The translations under genes were made by a program, and so were the position numbers. Below the pieces are notes generated by a model. It saw nothing but the letters and a program-made list of their open reading frames with translations. It ran no database searches and was not told the origin of the DNA. A stretch of DNA of 64,000 bases, from the NCBI RefSeq assembly GCF_001428605.1, contig NZ_LMID01000011.1:758704-822703 (forward strand). The letters are read 5' to 3'. The DNA is from Sphingomonas sp. Root720 (lineage in GTDB: Bacteria; Pseudomonadota; Alphaproteobacteria; Sphingomonadales; Sphingomonadaceae). Shown here piece by piece: positions 24,114-61,143 of the stretch. Each line of letters opens with the position of its first letter. The first letter of the stretch is position 1.

Positions 24114-24225
24114 TAGTAACCTCTCTACGCAGACTCGGTCACCAGTTTCTGGAGGCCGGGTGGCATGCGCGTATGTCCAGCCGGCAACGGTAAAGGCGCA
24201 TGCGCCTGTGCGTAGCAGGTTACTA
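24114..24225. repeat. Long imperfect inverted repeat (112 nt)
   Basis: Outer arms TAGTAACCTCTCTACGC and GCGTAGCAGGTTACTA match except for a one-base bulge and one mismatch. A 12-base palindrome GGCGCATGCGCC lies inside the right part. It could be a structured RNA or recombination scar. The attC core pattern is not satisfied. Confidence 0.45.
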
Positions 24226-43781: not shown

Positions 43782-43854
43782 CAACTGACCGCACACCTCA
43801 GCGACTACAACTATGGGCACCGCCTCAAGACCTTATGCGGCCTCACGCCTTGGC
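43776..43854 (+). pseudogene. Transposase C-terminal fragment (IS481/integrase-core-like)
   Basis: The plus-strand segment LDQLTAHLSDYNYGHRLKTL, then CGLTPW, resembles the end of integrase-core transposases. It starts where the CoA-transferase fragment ends and stops where the recombinase begins, so it marks a former insertion. Confidence 0.5.
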
Positions 43855-44185
43855 TCTGGTCAAGCACCTCGACGATCCGGGCAAGGTCAGCGAGGCTGCG
43901 GGTCAGCCGGTCGATCTTGTAGACGACGATGCAGTCGACCTTGCCGGCCTTGATATCGGCGAGGCGCTGTTTGAGGGCAGGGCGGTGCATAGTACCGCCC
44001 GACAAACCGCCATCGTCATAGGCGGTGGGGACGAGCTTCCAGCCCTCGTGGCGCTGGCTGGCGATATAGGCCTCGCAGGCCTCACGCTGGGCGTCGAGGC
44101 TGTTGAACGCCTGTTCCAGGCCCTTCTCGTCGGACTTGCGCGTGTAGACCGCGCAGCGGATCGGCTTGCCGTCACCGGGCGGCAT
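43811..44185 (-). pseudogene. Truncated serine recombinase (resolvase domain)
   Basis: This 124-residue frame encodes the catalytic N-terminus of a large serine recombinase: IRCAVYTRKSDEKGLEQAFNSLDAQ (nucleophile Ser in the RKSD segment), DGGLSGGTMHRPAL and CIVVYKIDRLTRSLADLARIVE. Homology stops near 43855, where the transposase fragment begins, and the remaining residues to 43811 are unrelated. Full proteins are over 500 residues, so the recombinase is inactive. It overlaps the DUF2924 gene by 14 bases. Confidence 0.82.
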
Positions 44186-44618
44186 CGGGCTTCGCCTTCA
44201 GGCCGAAGAAGCGCGGGCCTGACCACGCCGCCCCGGTGATCTCGCGGGCGATGGGGGTGAGCGAGCGATACTGGCGATCCTGGAACTGGAAGCCGTCCTC
44301 CCGCACCAGCACATGGTAGATGGTGCCATGCCATTGCCGGACGAGCTTGGTCCCCGGCTTCATCGAGCGATCCTTGCCCAGATCGATGTCACCGGTCTCG
44401 ACGAGTTGCTTCGTCAGGCGCTTCAGCTCGCGGCGGGTGGCGGTGGTGAGGCCGCCGCGGACGCGCTCCTGCCTCTGCCAGGCGATGGCACGGCTGGCGA
44501 GGTCGCAACCCAGGCCGAGCGGCATCAGCTGGCCCTTGTGATATTTGCGCCATTCGGTGCGGAGCTGGGCCTGCGACAATGTAGCAAGCCCGGCCAGCTG
44601 GTCGTCGATGGCGGCCAT
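44172..44618 (-). CDS. DUF2924 domain protein
   Basis: This 148-residue protein (LSQAQLRTEWRKYH, then LVRQWHGTIYHVLVREDGFQF) matches DUF2924, which is found beside large serine recombinases in alphaproteobacterial mobile elements. It appears intact. Function is unknown; a DNA-binding or element-maintenance role is inferred from the neighbourhood. Confidence 0.85.
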   Translation of the reverse strand: MAAIDDQLAGLATLSQAQLRTEWRKYHKGQLMPLGLGCDLASRAIAWQRQERVRGGLTTATRRELKRLTKQLVETGDIDLGKDRSMKPGTKLVRQWHGTIYHVLVREDGFQFQDRQYRSLTPIAREITGAAWSGPRFFGLKAKPDAAR

Positions 44619-45423: not shown

Positions 45424-47688
45424 CTAAAGTTTTAGATTGATTTCAACGCCATATGTACGGGGTGGCGCGACCGATCGCTGGTCGCCGAAATCGACCGCGC
45501 TCTCATAGACCGAATAGCGGGTGTTGAGCAGGTTGCGGCCGAACAGGTTGACCCCCCAGCGATCGTCGGGCGATCGCCAGCCGAGTTGCCCGCTCACCAG
45601 CCAATAGGCATCCTGCCGCAGCCGGTTGTCGGCGTCCCATGCGAAGCCGTCATTATAGGCCAGGGTGCCGTTGGCGTTGAAGGTGCCGGCGTCGGTCTTC
45701 AGACTGTAATTGCCGCCGGCGGTGAAGGTATATTCAGGGGTGCGGGCGACGTCGTTGCCCGAGACGTCGCAGCGAAAGCGGCGGTTGCGGGTCGTCGCCA
45801 GTCGCTCGGTGCACTGCGCGCTGGGATAAGAGGTGTAACGGGCGTGGGTCCAGGCGCCGCCCAGCGAGATCGACCATTCGCGGGTGATCGACAATTGGGC
45901 GTCGAGGTCGATGCCGTAGATCTTGGACTTGGCGGCATTTGACGTCTGGATCGAAGTTCCGTTCGACACCGGCAACTGCAGGTCGTCATACCAGTAATGA
46001 TAGCCGGCGATGGCGAAACGGAAGGCGCGTGACAGCGATCCCTTGGCGCCGACCTCGACCGCGTCGATCGTTTCCGGCTCGAAGGCGGGCGCTGTGCCGC
46101 TGGTGGCGTTGAAGCTGCCGCTTTTGAAGCCACGGCTGTAGGAGGTGTAGAGCAGGATATCCTCGGTGGGCTTGTAGTCGAGCACCACGCGGTAGCTGGG
46201 ATCCTTGAAGGTCGCTTCCTTGGGCACAATGGGCGTCGCGCTGGTCGGCGTCGGCGGGACGAAGGGGCTGCGCGTCACCACGGTGCCATCGGCGGCGGCA
46301 AAGCGGAAGGTTGTACCCGTCAGCCGGCGCTTGTCGATGGTGTAGCGGGCGCCGGCGCGCAGCCGGAGCTTCTCGGTCAGCGCATAGGTCGCCTCTCCGA
46401 ACGCCGAATAGGAATTGGTGCGCACGACGTTGCTCAGCCCGACCCCGCCGCCGAAAGCGGTTCCGAACAACCCGAGGCCGACCGGGTCGCGGAAGCCGTT
46501 GCGGTCCTTCATGTAGAAGCCGCCGAGGATCCAGGTGAAGGGCTTGTCGGGTGCCGACTGAAGCTGGACCTCCTGGGTGAAGGTCTTGAACAATTCGTTG
46601 GTCTGCACATCGGTCGCGGAGGTGACCGACAGGTCGTTGTCGAAGCGCTGACGTGCCTCGCCATGGCGATAGGCGGAAATGCTGACGAGGGTCAGTTCGT
46701 CGGACAATTCGGCATCGACCCGTGCGGAGACGCCCCAGCCCTTGGCCTTGTAGAGCGGATCCACGCCGGTGTTGGTGTCCCAGAAGCCGGCCGGTGTCCG
46801 GGCACCATCGAGATTGACGACGCCGGGCAGGGCGACGCGCGCGTCGCTGCGGTTCATATTTTCCGAATAGTCGCCGGTCAGGACGACACGGATCGGGCCG
46901 GAATTGTCATAGACGAGCTTGCTGCGCACGACGGTATATTCCTCGATGCCAACGTCCCGGCCCGAGGTCAGGTTGGTGCCATAGCCTTTGCCTTGCCGCT
47001 GCGCAGCGACCGCCACGTCCATTGCGATGGCATCCGACAGCCCGGTGCTGGCGTAGATCTTGCCGGCGACGGTTTCGAAATTGCCGTAGCTGAGCGATCC
47101 CTCGACCGTGGGGGTGTGGGTCGGCGTGCGGGTGATGATCTGGATCAGGCCGCCGGTGGCGTTGCGCCCGAACAGGGTGCCCTGCGGCCCCTTCAGCACT
47201 TCGACATGGTCGATATTGTTGAGCGCGCTGAAGCCCATCTTGGCGGCGGCGATGTAAACGCCGTCGACATAGGTCGCGACAGCGGCTTCCTGTCCTGCGG
47301 TGCCGTCGGCCGACCCCACGCCGCGCAGGAAGATGATCTGCCCGCCGGCCTGCTTGGCGACGGCAAGACCCGGGGTCACGTTCGCCAGGTCGATGGTGTT
47401 CTCGACCCGGGCATTGGTCAGGCTTTGCTGCGAGAAGGCCGAGACGGCGATCGGCACGTCGCTGAGCCGCTCGGAGCGGCGGGTGGCGGTAACGATGATG
47501 TCGTTGACGGCGGCGGTGTCGGTTGTGGCGGCTTCTGCGGGCGCCGGGGATGGTATCGCGGTGGTCTGCGCCGCGAGCGGTGCCAGCGGCGCGGCCAGCA
47601 AGGCGATGGTGGCTGCGGTCGCCCGGAGCCGGACGGGCAGCGCCATGCAGATCGGGCGCGACGGTGCGAAGTCATGAATGACGGTCAT
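45424..47688 (-). CDS. TonB-dependent receptor (paralogue of 61231-63420)
   Basis: This is a 754-residue protein from ATG 47688, with GGGGAGGATG upstream. The signal region ends near LAAQ. NDIIVTATRRSERLSDVPIAV box and plug (VEVLKGPQGTLFGRNATGGL) and a barrel ending in APPRTYGVEINLKL follow. Plug and C-terminus resemble the receptor at 61231 (APPRTYGVELSVKF). It lies 151 bases downstream of a D-aminoacylase gene on the same strand, so it may transport N-acyl-D-amino compounds or a related amide. Confidence 0.93.
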   Translation of the reverse strand: MTVIHDFAPSRPICMALPVRLRATAATIALLAAPLAPLAAQTTAIPSPAPAEAATTDTAAVNDIIVTATRRSERLSDVPIAVSAFSQQSLTNARVENTIDLANVTPGLAVAKQAGGQIIFLRGVGSADGTAGQEAAVATYVDGVYIAAAKMGFSALNNIDHVEVLKGPQGTLFGRNATGGLIQIITRTPTHTPTVEGSLSYGNFETVAGKIYASTGLSDAIAMDVAVAAQRQGKGYGTNLTSGRDVGIEEYTVVRSKLVYDNSGPIRVVLTGDYSENMNRSDARVALPGVVNLDGARTPAGFWDTNTGVDPLYKAKGWGVSARVDAELSDELTLVSISAYRHGEARQRFDNDLSVTSATDVQTNELFKTFTQEVQLQSAPDKPFTWILGGFYMKDRNGFRDPVGLGLFGTAFGGGVGLSNVVRTNSYSAFGEATYALTEKLRLRAGARYTIDKRRLTGTTFRFAAADGTVVTRSPFVPPTPTSATPIVPKEATFKDPSYRVVLDYKPTEDILLYTSYSRGFKSGSFNATSGTAPAFEPETIDAVEVGAKGSLSRAFRFAIAGYHYWYDDLQLPVSNGTSIQTSNAAKSKIYGIDLDAQLSITREWSISLGGAWTHARYTSYPSAQCTERLATTRNRRFRCDVSGNDVARTPEYTFTAGGNYSLKTDAGTFNANGTLAYNDGFAWDADNRLRQDAYWLVSGQLGWRSPDDRWGVNLFGRNLLNTRYSVYESAVDFGDQRSVAPPRTYGVEINLKL

Positions 47689-47839
47689 TGGCATCCTCCC
47701 CATTCACCGGCCCTTCGGCCGGCGGGAGATCGGCGACCCGCCACGTGCGGTTCGCGTCTCCCAGTCTCTCCGGGCCGCGCCGCACGATTCTCTCGTGTCG
47801 GCTACGTCCCTGGATATCGTTCGATCAGCGTTTCATCGG

Positions 47840-49609
47840 TCAGGCCTCGATCGCCTCGCCGACGGTCATCGCCGCCCGCGCTTCGGGCGCTGCCCGGCGG
47901 CCGCGGATGAGCTCGCCGGGCAGGGCGCCGCTATGCTCGCCGTGGCGATAGACGATCCGGCCGTTGACGATGGTGGCGACATAGCCGGTCGCCTCCTGCG
48001 TCAGCCGTCGCCCGCCGGCCGGCAGGTCGAAGCTGATGCGGGGGCCGTGCAGGACCATCGCATCATGATCGATGATGTTGATGTCCGCTTTGTAGCCGGG
48101 CAGCAGCACGCCGCGATCGTGCAGGCCGACCATCGCGGCGGTGTCGTGCGACAGCGCCTTGATCACCTGCGGCAGCGGCAGCCGCTCGCCTTGCGTACGG
48201 TCGCGGACCCAATGGGTCAGCATGAAGGTGGGATAGCTCGCGTCGCAGATCGCCCCGCAATGCGCGCCGGCATCGCCGAGGCCGAGGACGGTGTGCTGGT
48301 GCCGCATCATTGCCAGCACGGGTTCGAGATTACCGTCGGCATAGTTGGATGACGGCAGATAGAGCGTGTCGGTGCCGTCGCCGGCGGTCAGCACGTCGAA
48401 GGCGAATGCGGCTGGGGACAGGGAGAGACGCGCGGCTTCGGCCGCGACCGAGCTGTCGGCCGAGGGTTCATAGTCGGGGCGCGCACCCATCACGAACATC
48501 CGGTCGAACTGCCGAACCGACGCCAGCAGCGGCACCGGTGGGGGCAGGGGCTCCTCCTCGATGATCCGCTGCCGCCGGGCTGGTTCGCGCATCGCGGCGA
48601 GCCGATCGGGAAGCGGGAGATGCGCGATCTCGCGATAGGCGGGGGAGAGGATGAAGGGGTGCATCGACAGTTCGAGCCCGAACAGCATGCCGACACCGCG
48701 TGGTGTGACCTGTCCCTTGACCGAGGCGCCGTCGCGATTGGCGGCATCCATTAGCGCGAGGACCTCCCGCCAGGCATCGGGAGTGTCGTGGAACTGAACG
48801 GTGGGCACCATCAGCGTCTGGCCGGTCTCCCCGGCGACGCGCCGCAGCAGGCTGAACTCGCCCGCGACGTTGCGGCCCTCGTCATAGTCGGTGGCGATCT
48901 CGATGATGCCGCCGCCGGCTTCCTTCATCGCCGTGGCGATGGTCTTCAACTCGCGTTCGCCGGCGGCGAGGGTCGGGGCCTTCTCGCCATCGCTGCTGCG
49001 GTGGAAGATGGTGCGTGACGATCCGAAGCCGAGGGCGCCAGCCGCCATCGCCTCGCGAGTCAGCGCGGCCATGCGGTCGAGATCGTCCTGGGTCGCGGCG
49101 CCCGTCGCCGCCCGCTCGCCCATCACATAGACGCGCAGCGCCGAATGCGGCAGCAGGCTGGCGATGTTGATGTCGTGCGACCGGCGTTCGACCGCGTCGA
49201 GATATTCGGGGTAGGTCTCCCATTCCCAGGTCAACCCCTCGGTCATAACGATCTCGGGAATGTCCTCGATCCCCTCCATCAGGCAAACGAGCCGGTCGCG
49301 GTCCTCGGCGCGGCAGGGGGCGAAGCCGACCCCGCAATTGCCCATCAGCGCGGTGGTGACGCCGTGGTAGCAGGACGGGATCAGCCGATCCTCCCAGATC
49401 ACCTGGCCGTCATAATGGGTGTGGATGTCGACGAAGCCCGGGGTGACGAGCTTGCCGCGCGCGTCGATCGCCTGCTCGGCGGCCCAGCCATCGAGTGTAC
49501 CGATCGCAACGATACGGTCGCTGCGGACCGCGACGTCGGCGACATAGGGTTCACCGCCGTGACCGTCGACGATCGTGCCTTGGCGGATGATCAGGTCGGC
49601 CTGTGCCAT
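47840..49609 (-). CDS. N-acyl-D-amino-acid deacylase (D-aminoacylase)-like amidohydrolase
   Basis: This is a 589-residue protein from ATG 49609. The zinc motif [11 protein letters not shown] lies near residue 70, followed by [18 protein letters not shown], typical of D-aminoacylases. [20 protein letters not shown] carries the later metal Asp, and [19 protein letters not shown]-like DRGVLLPG the end of the barrel. D-aminoacylases are usually 480-560, so this is slightly long. It is 31 bases after an ACMSD-like gene. A paralogue lies divergently at 50976. The substrate is an amide, not otherwise readable. Confidence 0.9.
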
Positions 49610-49640: not shown

Positions 49641-50759
49641 TCAGGCCGCGCGCTTCTGGTCGAGCGCGGTCAGATCGATGCCGAACAGTTCGGCGGCGTT
49701 GCCCGACAGGATCGCCTGCTTCTGCTCGGGCGTGACGAAGCGGGTATGCTCCGCGAGCAGCGACTGGCTGGTTGGCCAGGTCGAGTCCGAGTGGGGAAAG
49801 TCGTTCGCCCAGAGCAGGCGGCGCCAGTTGACGAGGTCGGCGTTGCGGAACGCCAGCGGATCGTCCTGGAAGGTGAAGTAGAGATTCTGGAACAGATAAT
49901 GCGACGGCATCTGCTTCAGGTCGCCAGTCGGCAGGTGATGCCGATGCTCGGTATAGGCGCGGTCGATCTTGTGCGCATAATGCGCGATCCAGCCGCCGTC
50001 GCCTTCGACGCAGACGACCTTCAGGTCGGGATGACGCTCGAACACGCCGCCGAAGATCAGCATCCCCAATATGTCCTGCACGCCGCGGACATGGTTCATG
50101 AAGGTGTTGATCTTAGATCCGCGCACCGGCGGGGTGAAGCCGCCCGCGGCGATGATGTGGAAGGCGACCGGCAGGCCGCTGTCGACCGCCGCCGCCCAGA
50201 AGTCGTCATAGACCGGGGAATCGTAATCCTCGACCCCGGGGACGCCCGGCATCATGATGCCGCGCAGCCCCTGCGCCTTGATCCCCGCGAGATCCTCGAT
50301 GCCCGCTTGGGGGGTCTTCATCGCGGTCTGGCCCATGCCGAGCAAGCGCGAGCGATCGAAGTCGCAATAATCGCTGAGCCAGCGATTATAGGCCTTGAAG
50401 CAGGCGTCCTTGTAATCGAGATCGGGATGGTTGCACAGGATCATTCCCACCGTCGGGTAGATGACCTCGGCCGAGACCCCGTCGCGATCCTGGTCGGCGA
50501 GGCGGTGCGACGAATCCCAGCCACCCCGATGCAGGTCGAGATAGCGGCGCATCGCCTTCTTGCGCTCGGCCGGCGCGATGCCGGCCGCGGCGGCGCCACC
50601 GATCGCGATCGTCCCCATGCCCTTGATGGCAAAGGCGACGCTATCGTTCTCCTCGACCACGAAGGGGGCGTCATCCTTGTACCGCGCGTCGATGTAGCGG
50701 GCGTAGGTGTCGGTCGTTTCCGTAATGTGAGAATCGGCCGAAATGATCGGATAGCTCAC
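49641..50759 (-). CDS. ACMSD-like amidohydrolase (amidohydrolase_2)
   Basis: This is a 372-residue protein from GTG 50759, with AGGAGAG 5 bases upstream. ADSHITE near the N-terminus gives the Asp-x-His metal motif of the family, VAFHIIAAGG and VCVEGDGGWIAHY the later His/Glu/Trp region, and WANDFPHSDSTWP the C-terminal Asp-x-x-His. Members decarboxylate or hydrolyse cyclic metabolites with Zn. It is diverged from the second D-aminoacylase across a TTGTCA palindrome, which should control it. Confidence 0.88.
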   Translation of the reverse strand: MSYPIISADSHITETTDTYARYIDARYKDDAPFVVEENDSVAFAIKGMGTIAIGGAAAAGIAPAERKKAMRRYLDLHRGGWDSSHRLADQDRDGVSAEVIYPTVGMILCNHPDLDYKDACFKAYNRWLSDYCDFDRSRLLGMGQTAMKTPQAGIEDLAGIKAQGLRGIMMPGVPGVEDYDSPVYDDFWAAAVDSGLPVAFHIIAAGGFTPPVRGSKINTFMNHVRGVQDILGMLIFGGVFERHPDLKVVCVEGDGGWIAHYAHKIDRAYTEHRHHLPTGDLKQMPSHYLFQNLYFTFQDDPLAFRNADLVNWRRLLWANDFPHSDSTWPTSQSLLAEHTRFVTPEQKQAILSGNAAELFGIDLTALDQKRAA

Positions 50760-50818: not shown

Positions 50819-50836
50819 AATTGTCAGGTGACAAAT
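50819..50836. promoter_or_regulatory. TTGTCA palindromic operator between divergent amidohydrolase genes
   Basis: TTGTCA-GG-TGACAA is a perfect 14-bp palindrome (50821-50834), flanked by AA and AT. A second half-site TTGTCAATT follows at 50854. The same TTGTCA-N2-TGACAA core occurs at 55036-55057 beside a TetR gene. Confidence 0.7.
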
Positions 50837-50975
50837 TGCATTCATTTTGGCAGTTGTCAATTATCGAAGCGTGACGATGCCGCCGGGCATGCGACGTGGC
50901 GATAACGGACGACCTGCAAACCCGTTGACCCTGCGGGTGAAAAAGGCGGGCGCCGGGGAACAGCGAGAGGTTGCT

Positions 50976-52727
50976 ATGGCCGATTATGACGTGGTTATCC
51001 GCAATGGCCTGCTGGTCGACGGAACGGGGGCGGGACCGCTGCGCGGCGACCTAGCCGTGCGCGATGGCCGCATTGCGCGAATCGGGTCGATCGAAGAGCA
51101 GGGGCTATGGGAAATGGATGCCGAGGGCTGTATCGTAACCCCCGGATTCATTGACGTTCATACACATTATGATGGGCAGGCGATCTGGGCCGAACGGATG
51201 GTCCCGTCGTCGGCGCATGGGGTGACGACGGCGGTTATGGGCAATTGCGGGGTCGGATTCGCTCCCTGCCGAGCCGAAGACCGGGCGATGCTGATCGCCG
51301 CGATGGAGGGGGTGGAGGATATCCCCGAGATCGTCATGACCGAAGGACTCGCCTGGGAGTGGGAGACCTTCCCCGAATATCTGCAGGCGGTGGCGGGGCG
51401 GCGGCACGATATCGACCTGTGCAGCTATATCCCGCATTCGGCCCTGCGTGTGTATGCAATGGGTGAGCGCGGCGCGCTACGCGAGCCGTCGACGGCCGAG
51501 GACCGCGCGCGCATGGCCGCGCTGGTGCGTGAGGCTGTCCGGGCCGGTGCCTTCGGGTTCGCGACGTCGAACTTCGCCTTCCACCGCCGGATCGACGGTG
51601 AGCTGATCCCCTCCTTCGACGCGGCGGAGGCCGAGTTGCTCGACATCGCGCGCGCCGTCGCCGACGCCGATGGCGGCATCTTCCAGATGGTGCTCCACCT
51701 CGACCAGGCTGACGCCGCCGACACGAAGCGATCGATCCAGATGCTCGGCCGCATCTCGCGCCAGGCCGGGCTAGTCGTTACCTTCACCCTGGCACAGGAC
51801 AATGCACACCCCGACCGCTGGCGCGCGATATTGGGCTGGATCGGCGAGGAGGTCGCCGCGGGCGCGGACCTGCGGCCGCAGATTTTCCCCCGGCCGGTCG
51901 GCATCATCATGGGCCATGAACTATCGCTCAATCCTTTCAGCGACTGCCCGACCTACAAGGCGTTGCCCGCGACGATCGACGCCCGGCTGGCGCGGCTGCG
52001 CGATCCAGCGGTGCGGGCGCAGCTTCTGGACGAGATGCCCGATGCGCCGGTGCTGCCGATCCACCAGTTGTCGCGCAGCTACGACCGGATGTTCCCGATG
52101 GCCGACCCGCCCAGTTACGAGCCGCCGCTCGACAGCAGCGTGACGGCGCAGGCGGCGGCGCGCGGCGTCAGCCCCGAGGAGGTCGCCTATGATCTGATGC
52201 TGGCCGACGGGGGGCGGGGGCTGCTGTTCATCGCTGCGGCCAATTATGCCGATGGGGACCTGCGGCCGGTGCTAGAGATGATGCGCGATCCCCATGTCGT
52301 GCTCGGCCTGGGCGACGGGGGCGCGCATTACGGCCTGATCTGCGATTCGAGCTATCCGACCTTCGTTCTCACCTATCTGGCACGCGACCGCCCGGGCGAC
52401 CGGGTCGACCTGGCCCAGGCGGTACGGGCGCTGACCGACGTGCCCGCGCGGTTGATGGGGCTGGCCGATCGCGGGCGGCTGGCGCCGGGGCTGAAGGCCG
52501 ATATCAACGTGATCGACCATGAAGGGCTGACGCTCGACCTGCCCCGGGTGAAGTTCGATCTCCCCGCCAGCGGCCGGCGGCTCGATCAGGCGGCGAGCGG
52601 CTTCCGCTGCACCCTGGTCGGCGGCCGGCCGATCCTGATCGACGACGAACCCACCGGCTTGCTGCCCGGCCAACTCGTTCGATCGGGCGCGGTGCGGCGA
52701 AGCGCCGGGGCGGGAGTTGGGAGCTGA
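50976..52727 (+). CDS. N-acyl-D-amino-acid deacylase-like amidohydrolase (paralogue)
   Basis: This is a 583-residue protein. ATG 50976 was chosen because GAGAGG lies just upstream and homology begins at DYDVVIRNGLLVDGTG. The FIDVHTHYDGQ zinc motif, [18 protein letters not shown], and GLGDGGAHYGLICDSSYPTF match the gene at 47840 throughout, with long stretches nearly identical ([20 protein letters not shown]). It is followed after 5 bases by an MFS gene. Transcription is probably repressed from the TTGTCA operator. Confidence 0.92.
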   Translation: MADYDVVIRNGLLVDGTGAGPLRGDLAVRDGRIARIGSIEEQGLWEMDAEGCIVTPGFIDVHTHYDGQAIWAERMVPSSAHGVTTAVMGNCGVGFAPCRAEDRAMLIAAMEGVEDIPEIVMTEGLAWEWETFPEYLQAVAGRRHDIDLCSYIPHSALRVYAMGERGALREPSTAEDRARMAALVREAVRAGAFGFATSNFAFHRRIDGELIPSFDAAEAELLDIARAVADADGGIFQMVLHLDQADAADTKRSIQMLGRISRQAGLVVTFTLAQDNAHPDRWRAILGWIGEEVAAGADLRPQIFPRPVGIIMGHELSLNPFSDCPTYKALPATIDARLARLRDPAVRAQLLDEMPDAPVLPIHQLSRSYDRMFPMADPPSYEPPLDSSVTAQAAARGVSPEEVAYDLMLADGGRGLLFIAAANYADGDLRPVLEMMRDPHVVLGLGDGGAHYGLICDSSYPTFVLTYLARDRPGDRVDLAQAVRALTDVPARLMGLADRGRLAPGLKADINVIDHEGLTLDLPRVKFDLPASGRRLDQAASGFRCTLVGGRPILIDDEPTGLLPGQLVRSGAVRRSAGAGVGS

Positions 52728-52732
52728 GCGCC

Positions 52733-53962
52733 GTGCAGGCGACGCCGGGCGATGGCGAATGGCGGGCCGGCTGGCGGCCGTTGCTGGCGAGTACGGTCGG
52801 CTTCGGCAGCGGCCTCGGTCTCGTCACCTATCTCTCCAGCCTGTTCATCCTGCCGGTGCAGCGCGAGAGCGGCTGGTCGACCAGCGCGGTCACCATCTCG
52901 CCGATCATCAGCCTGCTGGTCGGGCTTTGCTCGCCGTTCGCCGGCATGCTGGTCGATCGCTGGGGCAGCCGGCGGATAAGCCTGATCGGGCTGGCGCTGC
53001 TCGGCGCGACCCTGTGCCTGCTCGCGATGGCCCCGCTTCGGCCAATGACGCTCTATGGCGCTGCGGCGGCGATCGGCCTCGTCGGCGCGCTGTCGAGCAC
53101 GACGCCATTCCTGCGCTGCGTGGCCGGCTGGTTCCCTAGGCGGACCGGCTTCGCGCTGGGCCTCGCGATGAACGGGGTGCCGGTGATGGCCTTCGTCGTG
53201 ACGCCGCTGGTGAGCTGGATCATCTATGCGCATGGCTGGCGGAGCGGCTATCTGGCGCTGGCGGGGGTGAGCCTGCTGGTCGGCTGGCCGCTGGTCTATG
53301 CATTGCTGGCCGACCGCGCCGGATCGGCGCCAGCGGCGCGGCGCGGCGGCGACGCGTCCTTGCGTCCGGCGCTCCGGCAGCCGGCCTTCTGGCTGGTCAC
53401 GCTGGCGATCGGGCTCGCCTCGATCCCGCTGGGCGGCTTCCTCGCGAGCCTACAGCCGATGCTCGCCAGCAACGGCATCCCGATCCGCGACGCGACGATC
53501 CTGGGCATGGTCTATGCGCTGTCGATCATGCTCGGCCGGCTGCTCGGCGGCTATTGCATGGATCGCTTCTGGGATGGCGGGGTGGCGCTGGGCCTGATGC
53601 TGCTGTCGGGGGCGGGCGCGCTGATGCTGGCGGGCGGGGTGATGCCGATGCCGCTGTTGGTGGCGGCCGTGCTGCTGGTCGGCATGGGGCAGGGGGCGGA
53701 GGCCGACATGATCGGCTATTTCGCGCTGCGCCTGTTCGGCCTCGGCGCCTACAGCACGATCGTCGGCCTGTGGACGATGGTGGCGTCGCTGACCATCGCG
53801 CTGGGCGGCATCAGCTTCGCCGGGATCTACGATCATGCCGGCAGCTATGCCGGTGCGTGTTTGCTGGGCGCGGGCTGCTTCCTGCTGTCGGGGCTGCTAC
53901 TGTTCGGCACCCGGCTGACCTATCGCCAGGATTGCCGCGCTTCGGTGCCGGCCGCGGCCTAA
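52733..53962 (+). CDS. MFS transporter (OFA/monocarboxylate-like)
   Basis: This is a 409-residue, 12-segment protein from GTG 52733, 5 bases after the D-aminoacylase gene. The segments STVGFGSGLGLVTYLSSLFILPVQRESGW and MLVDRWGSRRISLIG (MFS motif A) and MNGVPVMAFVVTPL resemble oxalate/formate-antiporter-like carriers. It probably imports the amidohydrolase substrate or exports a product. Its stop overlaps the convergent dehydrogenase stop. Confidence 0.9.
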   Translation: MQATPGDGEWRAGWRPLLASTVGFGSGLGLVTYLSSLFILPVQRESGWSTSAVTISPIISLLVGLCSPFAGMLVDRWGSRRISLIGLALLGATLCLLAMAPLRPMTLYGAAAAIGLVGALSSTTPFLRCVAGWFPRRTGFALGLAMNGVPVMAFVVTPLVSWIIYAHGWRSGYLALAGVSLLVGWPLVYALLADRAGSAPAARRGGDASLRPALRQPAFWLVTLAIGLASIPLGGFLASLQPMLASNGIPIRDATILGMVYALSIMLGRLLGGYCMDRFWDGGVALGLMLLSGAGALMLAGGVMPMPLLVAAVLLVGMGQGAEADMIGYFALRLFGLGAYSTIVGLWTMVASLTIALGGISFAGIYDHAGSYAGACLLGAGCFLLSGLLLFGTRLTYRQDCRASVPAAA

Positions 53963-54948
53963 TCCCGCGCGCCGACGAGATTGAGCGGGGTCCCATCGAC
54001 GAGGAAACGGCGGATATTGTCTAGGGCGAAGCGGTCGGCGCGGTTGCCGAGCCCGTCGCCATAGGCCGAGGCATGCGCCGTCATCCAGACGCGCGGATGC
54101 GACCAGAGCGGATCGTCGGCGGGAAGCGGCTCCAGCGGTGCGACGTCGAGGATGGCGTGGGCCGGGCGCCCGGCGTCGAGCGCCGCGATGAGCGCATAAT
54201 GGTCGACCAGGCCGCCGCGACCGACATTGATCAGCACCGCATCAGGCTTCGTCGCCGCCAGCGCCGCCGCGTCGATCATGTGCCGGGTCGCATCGGACAG
54301 CGGCAGCGCCAGCACCACCACGTCCGCTCCGGCCAGTTCGTCGCTCAGCCTTTCGGGATGGGCGATGCGGTCGGCGGCGGGATCGGGGGACGGATCGCGC
54401 CGCATGCCGACGATCTCCGCCCCGAACGCCTTCGCGCGGATCGCGATGTCGCGGCCGATCGTGCCGAAGCCGACGATCAGCCAACGGGTTCCGTGGATTT
54501 CGCGGAAAGGGAGGGCGCGCCAGTCGCGCGCGGCCTGCAGCGCATGGCGCTCGGGCTCGCGCTGGAACAGCGACAGCAACCGGGCCATCACGAACTCGGC
54601 GATCCCCAGCGACTGGACGGTCGTCCGGCTCACCGCCACGCCGCGATCGGCCAGTTCACGCAGAAAGGGGGCATCGAACCCCGAACTGGCGCTCTGCACC
54701 CAGCGCAGATTGGGCGCGCGGCGAATGGCATCGTGGAAGATGGGGGCGGCGTCGGACAGCCAGGCCCGCGAATCGAGCAGGGCGCCCTCGACCAGCGACA
54801 GCAGATCGGTGGCGGTCGCCGTGTCGCAGGAGAGGCGCCCGTCGGCATGGGCCACGACGATGTGCGCCGGCAGCGCCGCGAGCGCGGACGCCATCGCGGT
54901 CCAGCTCGCCTCGAAGACCAGAAGGCCGGCCGTTCGATCGGTCGTCAC
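53959..54948 (-). CDS. D-2-hydroxyacid dehydrogenase (NAD-binding)
   Basis: This is a 329-residue protein from GTG 54948, preceded by GAGGAGCG; the frame upstream is not protein-like. IVGFGTIGRDIAIRAKAFG is the NAD Rossmann motif. The catalytic Arg is in VLINVGRGGLVD, and a His is in MTAHASAYGD, as in hydroxyacid dehydrogenases (330 is standard). Converts a 2-hydroxy acid and 2-oxo acid. It is diverged from a TetR gene across a 22-bp palindrome. Confidence 0.88.
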   Translation of the reverse strand: MTTDRTAGLLVFEASWTAMASALAALPAHIVVAHADGRLSCDTATATDLLSLVEGALLDSRAWLSDAAPIFHDAIRRAPNLRWVQSASSGFDAPFLRELADRGVAVSRTTVQSLGIAEFVMARLLSLFQREPERHALQAARDWRALPFREIHGTRWLIVGFGTIGRDIAIRAKAFGAEIVGMRRDPSPDPAADRIAHPERLSDELAGADVVVLALPLSDATRHMIDAAALAATKPDAVLINVGRGGLVDHYALIAALDAGRPAHAILDVAPLEPLPADDPLWSHPRVWMTAHASAYGDGLGNRADRFALDNIRRFLVDGTPLNLVGARD

Positions 54949-55035
54949 GTCATATCGCTCCTCGGGATGGGGGACGATCCGTGGGGCGGTCGGCGCGCCG
55001 CCCGGGCTGCGATCGTTGATAGCTGTCGTGCCACG

Positions 55036-55057
55036 ATAATTGTCAGATGACAATTAT
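55036..55057. promoter_or_regulatory. Perfect 22-bp palindromic operator, dehydrogenase/tetR divergent region
   Basis: Arms ATAATTGTCA and TGACAATTAT, separated by GA, are perfect inverted repeats. It is 69 bases before the TetR ATG and 88 before the dehydrogenase GTG, as expected for an autoregulated repressor. Confidence 0.78.
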
Positions 55058-55125
55058 TCTATTGCCTTATGGTCGATCTGTGCGAATGGCGTGGATGTGC
55101 AGGCGATCGGGAGCGAAGAAAGCAC

Positions 55126-55779
55126 ATGAGTCAGGCCGGAACATCGACTTCGCGGGTGAGCAAGCGGGAAGCGCTGGAGGCGGCCCTGCTCGATGCCGCC
55201 GAGATGCTGTTCGGCAGCCGCTCGGTCGAGGCGGTCTCGATGCGCGAGATCGCGGTCGCGGCCGGGACCAGCAACCATTTCGCGGTCCAGCATTATTTCA
55301 ACACCAAGGACGAACTGATCCGCGCGATCTTCCGCCGGCGTGCGGTTTCGATCGAGGGCCAGCGCGCCGAGCGGCTGGACGCGCTCCGCCGGTCGGGGCG
55401 CGGCGAGAGTGCGCGGGGCCTGCTCGAAGTGCTGTTCCTGCCGGTGATCGAGGAGCTCGATCACCATGGCAACCGCAGCTATGCGCGCTTCTTGCTTGGG
55501 GTGATGTGGGCGCATCCCTATATGCAGTTGCGCGACGAGATGAACGAACTGTTCCCTGTGTCCAACGAGGTCATGGCGCTGATCGTCGAGGCGGTACCGC
55601 ACCTGACCGAGGAATTGTTCGCCGCCCGCATCTCCGCCAGTGCCACGCTGTTCCTGCAGGCGTCGCTGCACTGGGACCATGGTGGCGGCAGCTGGCAGAG
55701 CGCCTATCGCGATTTCGACGAGGCGGTCGCGGACGCGATGTCGATGGCGGTCGCGGCGCTCGAGGCGCCGGTCGGCTGA
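55126..55779 (+). CDS. TetR/AcrR family transcriptional regulator
   Basis: This is a 217-residue protein from ATG 55126. The helix-turn-helix is REALEAALLDAAEMLFGSRS ... MREIAVAAGTSNHFAVQHYFNTKDELI, with TetR spacing. The rest is the helical ligand domain. It is the likely reader of the TTGTCA palindromes at 55036 and 50819, controlling the D-aminoacylase, ACMSD-like and hydroxyacid dehydrogenase genes. The site upstream of it would give autoregulation. Confidence 0.9.
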   Translation: MSQAGTSTSRVSKREALEAALLDAAEMLFGSRSVEAVSMREIAVAAGTSNHFAVQHYFNTKDELIRAIFRRRAVSIEGQRAERLDALRRSGRGESARGLLEVLFLPVIEELDHHGNRSYARFLLGVMWAHPYMQLRDEMNELFPVSNEVMALIVEAVPHLTEELFAARISASATLFLQASLHWDHGGGSWQSAYRDFDEAVADAMSMAVAALEAPVG

Positions 55780-55796: not shown

Positions 55797-56981
55797 TCAG
55801 GCGGGTTCGATTCCGAACTCGGCCAGAACCTCGGCGGTATCGGCGCCCAGGACCGGGGCATGGCGACGGACACTGGCCGGAGTCTCCCCGAAGCGAGCGG
55901 GGTGCGCCGACAGGCGATAGGGGCCGATCACCGGATGCTCGCTGTCCTCGATCGTGCCTAGCGCGATGACATAGGGATCACTGGCGACGTCCTCCGGCCC
56001 GTTGACCGGCGCGAATACCGCGTCATTGGCTTCGAGCCGCTCGACCCATTCAGCGCGAGAGCGTCCCTGAAAGGCGCCGGAAAGAATGGCGTTCATCTCC
56101 TCGACGTTGATCAGCCGGTCCTTGAGGGTCAGGAAGCGGGGATCCTCGATCAGATCGGGCCGTTCGATAGCGGTGCACAGCCCCTTCCACTCGGGCTGGG
56201 CGAACATGCCGACGATGATGTGACCGTCGGCCGTCGGGAAGATGTAGCGGACCGACGAGGGGAAGGATCCGCGCTGGACCAGGTCGCCGGTCAGGCTGGC
56301 GTCGGCCATCACGTCGGGCCATAGGAAAGCGATGGCGGCATCGAGCATGCTGATCGTCACATGCTGGCCGATACCTTGCCGCTCGCGGGCGAGCAGCGCG
56401 GCGGTGACCGCTTGCCACACCGTCATCGCGGCGATTTTGTCGGTGATGATGGTGTTGACCATCGTCGGCTCGCCGGTGCCGCGCGGCGCCTGCATCTTGG
56501 CGAAGCCGGCCAGGCCCTGGACGACGATGTCGTAGACGCGCCGCTGGGCGCCGCGGCCTTCGCTGCCGAGCCCGTCGACCGAGACATAGATGATGTCGGG
56601 GCGCAGCGCCTTGACCTGTTCATAGCCGATGCCCAGCCGCTCTGCGACGCCGGGGCGGAAATTCTGGACGATCACGTCGCACTGAGCGGCGATCTTCTGC
56701 GCGGCGGCCTGGCCCTCGGCGCTCTTCATGTCGAGCACGATCGAGCGTTTGTTGCGGTTGCTGTTGAGGAAGAGGCTGGCCATCCCGTCGATGTCGCGAC
56801 GGAAATTGCCAGCGACCCTGGTCTGGTCGCCGCCCGCCACTTCGAGCTTGATGACCTCCGCCCCCTGGTCGCCGAGCAGCATCGTCGCCCATGGCACCGA
56901 GATATTCGCGCCCAGTTCGAGGATGCGATAGCCGTCGAGCGGGCCTTTCGCCGGACCATTTTCAGGGGTCTTGCCGACCAT
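55797..56981 (-). CDS. CaiB/BaiF family CoA transferase (family III)
   Basis: This is a 394-residue protein. GGGAGAAG precedes ATG 56981. N-terminal YRILELGANISVPWATMLLGDQGAEVIKLE, the FLNSNRNKRSIVLDMKSAEGQ segment, and NFRPGVAERLGIGYEQV are hallmark family III motifs. The ligand Asp around YDIVVQGLAGF is in the expected place. It moves CoA between acids in the cytoplasm. It converges with the TetR gene and is diverged from the BVMO. Likely activates a pathway carboxylate. Confidence 0.92.
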   Translation of the reverse strand: MVGKTPENGPAKGPLDGYRILELGANISVPWATMLLGDQGAEVIKLEVAGGDQTRVAGNFRRDIDGMASLFLNSNRNKRSIVLDMKSAEGQAAAQKIAAQCDVIVQNFRPGVAERLGIGYEQVKALRPDIIYVSVDGLGSEGRGAQRRVYDIVVQGLAGFAKMQAPRGTGEPTMVNTIITDKIAAMTVWQAVTAALLARERQGIGQHVTISMLDAAIAFLWPDVMADASLTGDLVQRGSFPSSVRYIFPTADGHIIVGMFAQPEWKGLCTAIERPDLIEDPRFLTLKDRLINVEEMNAILSGAFQGRSRAEWVERLEANDAVFAPVNGPEDVASDPYVIALGTIEDSEHPVIGPYRLSAHPARFGETPASVRRHAPVLGADTAEVLAEFGIEPA

Positions 56982-60240: not shown

Positions 60241-61067
60241 TCGTCGCGGCATCCCAGTCGATCGCCCTGATCACCGGCGCGGCCACCGGTATCGGCGAGG
60301 CCGCGGCGCGCGCGCTGGCGGCCCGCAACATGGTGGTGGTGGGGACCGACGTCGACGTCGTCCGTGGCGAGAAGCTGTTCGCCGCGCTCGGTGCGCCGCA
60401 CCTGTTCCTGCCGCTCGACGTCCGCGATCCGGCGGCTTGGGCCCGCACGGTCAGGGAGATCGTCAACCGCTTCGGCCGGCTCGATTTCGTCCATCTCAAC
60501 GCTGGGGTGATGAGCCGCCCGAAGGGCGCGCCGCTGATGGACGATCCGCTGACCTGGTTCACCGCCGAAGGCTATGCCAAGGTCATGGACGTTAATCTCG
60601 GCGGCGTGGCGCATGGCATCAAGGCCGCGCTCGAGGCGCCGGGCCTGTCGCGCATCCTGATCACCGCATCGGGGGCGGCGATCCTGCCGCTCGACCTCGA
60701 TCCCTATTACACCGCGTCCAAATATGGTGTGCTGGGGATGGGGCTGGCGCTCGCACCGACCCTGGAGAAGCGCGGCGTGCGGCTGGACGTCCTATGTCCC
60801 GGGGCGATCGGCACCGACCTGACCGCGCCCGATATTCGCGCCGCCATCCATCAGGAGCCCGCGGGCTTCATCGGAGAGGCGGTCGCCACCCTCGCGACGA
60901 CCGACGAGCCGGGGCCGGTGTGGCTCGCCTTCACCGAGGCCGAGGGCCTGAAGCGGTACGACGTTCCGGCGCTGCCGGGGCTTTCAGGGGCGCTAGACGT
61001 GACCGATCAGGCAAATGCACACAATGATCGTAATGTCGTCCCGGCACCTCGATCCTCTGTCAATTGA
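60237..61067 (+). CDS. Short-chain dehydrogenase/reductase
   Basis: This is a 276-residue protein. Cofactor motif TGAATGIGEAAA, catalytic Ser in ILITASGAA, Tyr/Lys in YYTASKYG, all classical. The Asp in GTDVDV after the first beta-alpha-beta favours NAD. It is co-translated with the esterase (ATGA overlap). It probably oxidises the alcohol made by ester cleavage or a ketone precursor. The last ~25 residues are low-complexity. Confidence 0.9.
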   Translation: MIVAASQSIALITGAATGIGEAAARALAARNMVVVGTDVDVVRGEKLFAALGAPHLFLPLDVRDPAAWARTVREIVNRFGRLDFVHLNAGVMSRPKGAPLMDDPLTWFTAEGYAKVMDVNLGGVAHGIKAALEAPGLSRILITASGAAILPLDLDPYYTASKYGVLGMGLALAPTLEKRGVRLDVLCPGAIGTDLTAPDIRAAIHQEPAGFIGEAVATLATTDEPGPVWLAFTEAEGLKRYDVPALPGLSGALDVTDQANAHNDRNVVPAPRSSVN

Positions 61068-61143
61068 AAAGCTCGATTATTCGGTAGATTTGTGGGTGTT
61101 CCGTATGGCGCCGCGATAACCGGCAGCTCCCTTCAAAAATGGA

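Follow-up and report, generated by a model that had tools for sequence, protein, structure and literature searches.

The window, i.e. the whole stretch of 64,000 bp from Sphingomonas sp. Root720 analysed here, contains a hydrolase gene cluster with two divergent intergenic gaps. To the left of the first gap the minus strand carries an Amidohydro_2 gene (49641–50759, GTG start assigned; PF04909, 81 bits), an Amidohydro_3 gene (47840–49609; PF07969, 186 bits) and a TonB-dependent receptor gene (45424–47703; PF00593, 151 bits, and PF07715). Judging from the orientation, 47840–49609 probably forms an operon with 49641–50759, and the TonB receptor gene is probably the end of this operon. To the right of the gap, on the plus strand, follows a second Amidohydro_3 gene (50976–52727; PF07969, 157 bits), whose product is 50% identical to that of 47840–49609. 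An MFS transporter gene (52733–53962, plus strand; PF07690, 90 bits) starts 5 bp downstream of it and probably belongs to the same operon. At the second gap a D-2-hydroxyacid dehydrogenase gene (53959–54948, minus strand, GTG start assigned; PF02826, 164 bits) is divergent from tetR (55126–55779, plus strand, start assigned), which encodes the proposed regulator of 217 amino acids (PF00440, TetR_N, 42.2 bits at a cut-off of 24). Beyond tetR lie a CoA-transferase III gene (CaiB, 55797–56981, minus strand) and then genes for a flavin monooxygenase (BVMO), an alpha/beta hydrolase, an SDR and a second TonB receptor. The best NCBIfam match of BVMO is a Baeyer-Villiger-type synthase, far below the cut-off, and among the matches listed none of the ten locus proteins scanned reached an NCBIfam cut-off. 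A literature search for the catabolic context of the locus found nothing.

Next to the TonB/amidohydrolase block, on its left side, a DUF2924 gene (PF11149) overlaps with the N-terminal fragment of a resolvase (PF00239, 124 amino acids; both within 43811–44618, minus strand). A mobile element at the border of the block may have left this trace. A separate observation concerns a marked expansion in the draft genome of the genus relative G399, where the Amidohydro_2 protein has 12 homologues (E 1e-60 or better); the other 13 genus members have 0–2.

Each of the two gaps contains a predicted operator. Site 1 (50819–50836, no strand; AATTGTCAGGTGACAAAT) is located between the Amidohydro_2 and the Amidohydro_3 gene and contains the core TTGTCAGGTGACAA at 50821–50834. 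Its centre is about 68 bp away from the start at 50759 and about 148 bp away from the start at 50976. Site 2 (55036–55057, no strand; ATAATTGTCAGATGACAATTAT), between the dehydrogenase gene and tetR, is a perfect palindrome with 10-bp arms around the 2-bp centre GA, centred about 80 bp from the start of tetR and about 98 bp from that of the dehydrogenase gene. The first-pass annotation had described a perfect 14-bp core at 50821, a perfect 22-bp palindrome at 55036 and a core common to both, and all of this was borne out: compared to one 18-mer, AATTGTCA-N2-TGACAATT, site 2 matches at 16/16 and site 1 at 15/16 positions. The flanking genes named there are also correct by Pfam (Amidohydro_2 and Amidohydro_3 at site 1, D-2-hydroxyacid dehydrogenase and TetR_N at site 2). 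A weak third site (50845–50862, no strand; TTTTGGCAGTTGTCAATT), which the first-pass annotation does not mention, matches the 18-mer at 12/16 positions, followed in the window by a place with 11/16. Its centre lies 26 bp from that of site 1, and it may be an auxiliary site or a product of chance.

With up to two mismatches, the 14-bp core occurs at four places in the window, namely both sites, 50847 and 61057–61070, compared to 0.42 expected, and none of 100 shuffles of the window reached four matches. Palindromes of the 6-2-6 type as such are frequent (32 in the window), and the arm ATCGCC is likewise present twice. A recurring 6-bp arm is not striking alone; the rarity lies in the TTGTCA arm together with its extension and its placing. 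Sigma-70-like promoters were not recognised in either of the intergenic regions holding the two sites, and terminator-like signals were found at neither site.

The perfect core is present at two places in the 5,588,032-bp genome, both at this locus, while the backwards control gave none. At up to two mismatches 33 places were found against 23 for the backwards control; hence, the weaker matches are mostly background. There are two copies with one mismatch, both on other contigs. The 18-mer at up to three mismatches occurs at three places, which are the two sites (0 and 1 mismatch) and a place on contig C10 with 3 mismatches; here, too, the control gave none. One of the 1-mismatch copies, TTGTCACTTGACCA (C10:75592, positions 1501–1514 of the retrieved locus L003), is flanked by a gene resembling that of the methylamine dehydrogenase heavy chain and by another TetR gene, whose product has a BetI-type C-terminal domain.

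In the family, 15 of 397 genomes contain the perfect core, with two copies here only and a single copy in each of the other 14; for the backwards control the matches listed contain none. Frequent occurrence of the motif at unrelated loci, which the first-pass annotation had named as an argument against its proposal, was thus not observed, as the host genome of 5.59 Mb has no further perfect core and single copies occur in 14 of 396 other family genomes. A rough calculation puts the probability that chance alone would place two copies within 4.2 kb of each other in this genome at around a few in a million; it uses a background of 14 copies in the 396 other genomes, whose about 1.3 Gb were estimated from genome sizes. 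Eight of the 14 outside copies sit under a mechanically chosen open reading frame. A homologue of the tetR product (P0001) is found near one of them, in G196, and the other 13 have none within 1.5 kb. Two of the copies (L053 and L054 in G125 and G183, from one genus) have similar flanks and no P0001-like TetR nearby; they may be used by another regulator. At a further copy, in G218, an open reading frame about 0.4 kb from the core (L056, 508–1116) resembles a TetR-type regulator by reading alone and has no tblastn relation to P0001.

The closest solved relative of the tetR product is 2fbq (E 4.5e-8), which we take to be PsrA, and PsrA-type regulators are its best database relatives (2fbq, NF053516). 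Since NF053516 scores 39.5 bits at a cut-off of 300, the protein is not filed as PsrA; the equivalog cut-offs of BetI (29.7 vs. 201.3 bits) and AcrR (22.5 vs. 271 bits) were likewise not reached. The operator in the window is unlike the PsrA site. The C-terminal part matches PF17939 (TetR_C_30) with 19.9 bits, below the cut-off of 26.3. Homologues at E 1e-12 are present in 54 of 397 family genomes, including its own, and the best near-full-length homologue in the other family genomes is 37% identical. A genus search of 14 genomes yielded one genome, G398, with a 68% identical stretch of the protein. Among plasmid records 15 have a TetR match, 12 of them listed at no more than 38% identity, and the Amidohydro_2 protein has no match on plasmids at 1e-50. 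A search for orthologues in general genome contigs gave four loci with 28–34% identity from Firmicutes (Bacillota), which were set aside.

For a comparison of upstream regions 60 regions were fetched, the 57 top-ranked other family hits and 3 genus-search hits, which are a subset of all hits. L147 and L171 (no tblastn match) and L175 (broken gene) were excluded, leaving 58 regions, the window plus 57 homologues. The tetR starts of the homologues were picked by a script, which placed the tetR start in the window at 55069 instead of the assigned 55126. The 17,400 bp immediately upstream of the tetR genes contain 10 near-palindromes (7 or more of 8 pairs, GNCA-N2-TGNC core), distributed over 9 of 58 regions. 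In the other 671,577 bp there are 6, including site 1. The corresponding p value of 7e-13 overstates the enrichment, because the core was picked post hoc and several carriers belong to related genera. Examples are TTAAGCCA-GT-TGGCTTAA, ATAAGGCA-TC-TGCCTCAT, TTACGCCA-TT-TGGCGTAA and AAAGGTCA-GC-TGACTTTT. Full 8-2-8 palindromes (8/8 pairs) occur in 5 of 58 regions versus 0.45 expected from base-composition shuffles, and those with at least 7 pairs in 24 regions versus 8.3 expected. Two of the five full palindromes (L131 and L170) are without the GNCA core, other spacers are enriched too (spacer 0, 4 vs. 0.4 expected), and a clear palindrome is missing upstream of most TetR homologues.

The letters of the window core itself are rarely found at related genes. 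In the 350 bp upstream of 28 other TetR homologue loci (those placed by tblastn; L045 gave no match and was left out) the core is present at none with 0–1 mismatch, at one with two and at four with three mismatches. In all 29 other P0003 homologue loci examined, the top-ranked of hits in 228 genomes, the core with up to three mismatches is absent from the 400 bp upstream; hence, the arrangement is not conserved in those 29 loci. In G196 the sole perfect TTGTCA-N2-TGACAA of the genome is located in a divergent region, with an enoyl-CoA hydratase/ligase pair on one side and an MFS gene on the other; behind the MFS gene comes a tetR homologue. This homologue lies about 1.9 kb from the core, is 29% identical (E 1.6e-19) and has no Pfam match at 1e-5. 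Both TetR proteins with a perfect TTGTCA site, from the window and from G196, have a phenylalanine at the same position of the recognition helix. Including the window, 5 of 10 regions with this phenylalanine contain the core with up to two mismatches, compared to 0 of 48 others. We regard this as a weak post hoc lead, since the link was defined after two members had been seen, and in three of the five the core has 2 mismatches, a class of sites whose frequency is close to background (33 in 5.59 Mb). Separately, TAAGCCA-N2-TGGCTTA occurs twice upstream of one tetR homologue (L130 in G127), at a distance of 114 bp, in a two-operator arrangement.

We consider it possible, though not quite probable, that the TetR belongs to a subfamily expanded in sphingomonads in which the members' own promoters would each carry an 8-2-8 operator, with a fixed inner GNCA-N2-TGNC and diverged outer bases (TTAAGCCA, ATAAGGCA, TTACGCCA, AAAGGTCA and AATTGTCA). 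A limited literature search retrieved nothing in which TAAGCCA and TGGCTTA appear together, and for TTGTCA-type half-sites together with TetR it retrieved unrelated papers only.

The sister genome G398 is a draft of 460 contigs with 8% contamination. On its contigs C267 and C118 the window is matched at 88–89% from position 55222 onwards to the right, and the contig starts 460 bp before the match. Left of 55222 no orthologue was found among the matches listed; the amidohydrolase regions match at 66–69%, and a search with the Amidohydro_2 protein (P0002) gave no match at 1e-60. G398 lacks the perfect core and has two 1-mismatch places on other contigs. In its tetR, codons 1–32 are missing and three frameshifting gaps are present; the differences at first, second and third codon positions amount to 0.119/0.062/0.246. 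The corresponding values are 0.031/0.015/0.187 for CaiB, 0.031/0.031/0.226 for the 5' part of BVMO, 0.069/0.056/0.259 for the hydrolase, 0.062/0.054/0.320 for the SDR and 0.021/0.019/0.217 for TonB. Frameshifting gaps were found in none of CaiB, BVMO (aligned to 59001), the hydrolase and TonB, and the SDR has three within its last approximately 55 bases. In G398, where the left block was not found, the genes beyond the decayed tetR thus look intact. Most simply, tetR would serve the left block, decay once that block is missing and have no part in the right one. The regulon probably does not include the CoA-transferase/monooxygenase block. G398 may have lost the left block, or the species of the window may have gained it. 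Ahead of the truncated tetR (128–271 of L175, contig C267), 146 bp match the window at 24195–24050 in the opposite direction at 83%, a stretch that is single copy within the window. Because the head of the contig matches this stretch inverted, a rearrangement or a shared repeat is possible in G398.

Taken from the sequence, it is highly probable that both palindromes are autoregulatory operators of the TetR encoded at 55126, controlling the adjoining dehydrogenase gene and the two divergent amidohydrolase operons 4.2 kb away. The local autoregulated TetR regulon suggested by the first-pass annotation is thereby supported as the best reading, by the uniqueness in the genome, by palindromes of the same geometry upstream of some homologues and by the decayed tetR of G398. 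However, a palindrome does not reveal which protein binds it, and 4.3 kb separate site 1 from tetR. The sites could belong to a different regulator encoded elsewhere, with tetR as one target among several; the TetR gene next to the 1-mismatch core at C10:75592 and the 15/16 copies of the 18-mer in two other genomes (L050 and L055), which have no P0001-like TetR within 1.5 kb, would fit such a case. For a regulator of this kind, sites would be expected near its own gene or near other targets, yet the genome contains no further place of the 18-mer at up to two mismatches, and similarly built palindromes lie upstream of some homologues of precisely the 55126 TetR. We therefore regard a different regulator as rather improbable.

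It is also unlikely that site 2 alone works, in autoregulation and for the dehydrogenase gene, with site 1 as a non-functional likeness. The perfect arms of site 1 are indeed 6 bp long (15/16) compared to 10 bp in site 2, but site 1 is the sole other perfect core in the genome and is placed in an intergenic, divergent region. That the palindromes are chance or structural elements, e.g. terminators or repeats, rather than protein sites would agree with the frequency of 6-2-6 palindromes and the recurrence of one other arm. Their uniqueness in the genome, the extent of 18 bp, the divergent intergenic placing and the lack of a terminator-like site at either position make this explanation very improbable.

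In the preferred reading, a regulon of the 55126 TetR, a TetR dimer would bind AATTGTCA-N2-TGACAATT at site 2 and thereby control its own promoter and the divergent dehydrogenase gene. The same protein would bind site 1, perhaps aided by the weak site 26 bp away, and control the Amidohydro_2/Amidohydro_3/TonB operon to the left as well as the Amidohydro_3/MFS operon to the right. At both sites the dimer most likely represses rather than activates, and its release is probably triggered by a compound of the hydrolase pathway, either a substrate or an intermediate. We infer binding, operon extents and inducer as parts of this model.

The RutR operator of E. coli, TTGACCA-N2-TGGTCAA, is similar in that RutR belongs to the TetR family and its palindrome has a CA-N2-TG centre, whereas the outer bases differ from those of the window sites; this comparison covers operator geometry alone. 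A literature search found no text with RutR together with TTGACCA. A palindromic consensus of about 16 bp is given for E. coli RutR in PMC10891134. Closer in layout are the TetR/tetA type and other divergent TetR switches, as described in PMC3511530, where the regulator is divergent from an enzyme or transporter gene with less than 200 bp between the starts and a palindrome in between. In contrast to these, a second site 4.2 kb away here ties in another divergent gene pair. The same paper reports that a divergent neighbour is most likely under the control of the TetR regulator if less than 200 bp separate the two (PMC3511530). The starts of tetR and the dehydrogenase gene, as assigned from reading frames, are 177 bp apart, with site 2 inside. 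This kind of system is already known, since local autoregulated TetR switches are common; the specificity found here is unusually clean.

The analysis links the hydrolase cluster to a proposed regulator with its specific operator and two divergent target regions, which makes the regulon directly testable. The comparison of homologues suggests a usable operator series for a group of sphingomonad TetR regulators whose targets are otherwise hard to predict. If the proposed subfamily is real, it would be a natural series for matching residues of the recognition helix to operator bases, with N-H-H corresponding to GCCA and N-H/R-F to TTGTCA.
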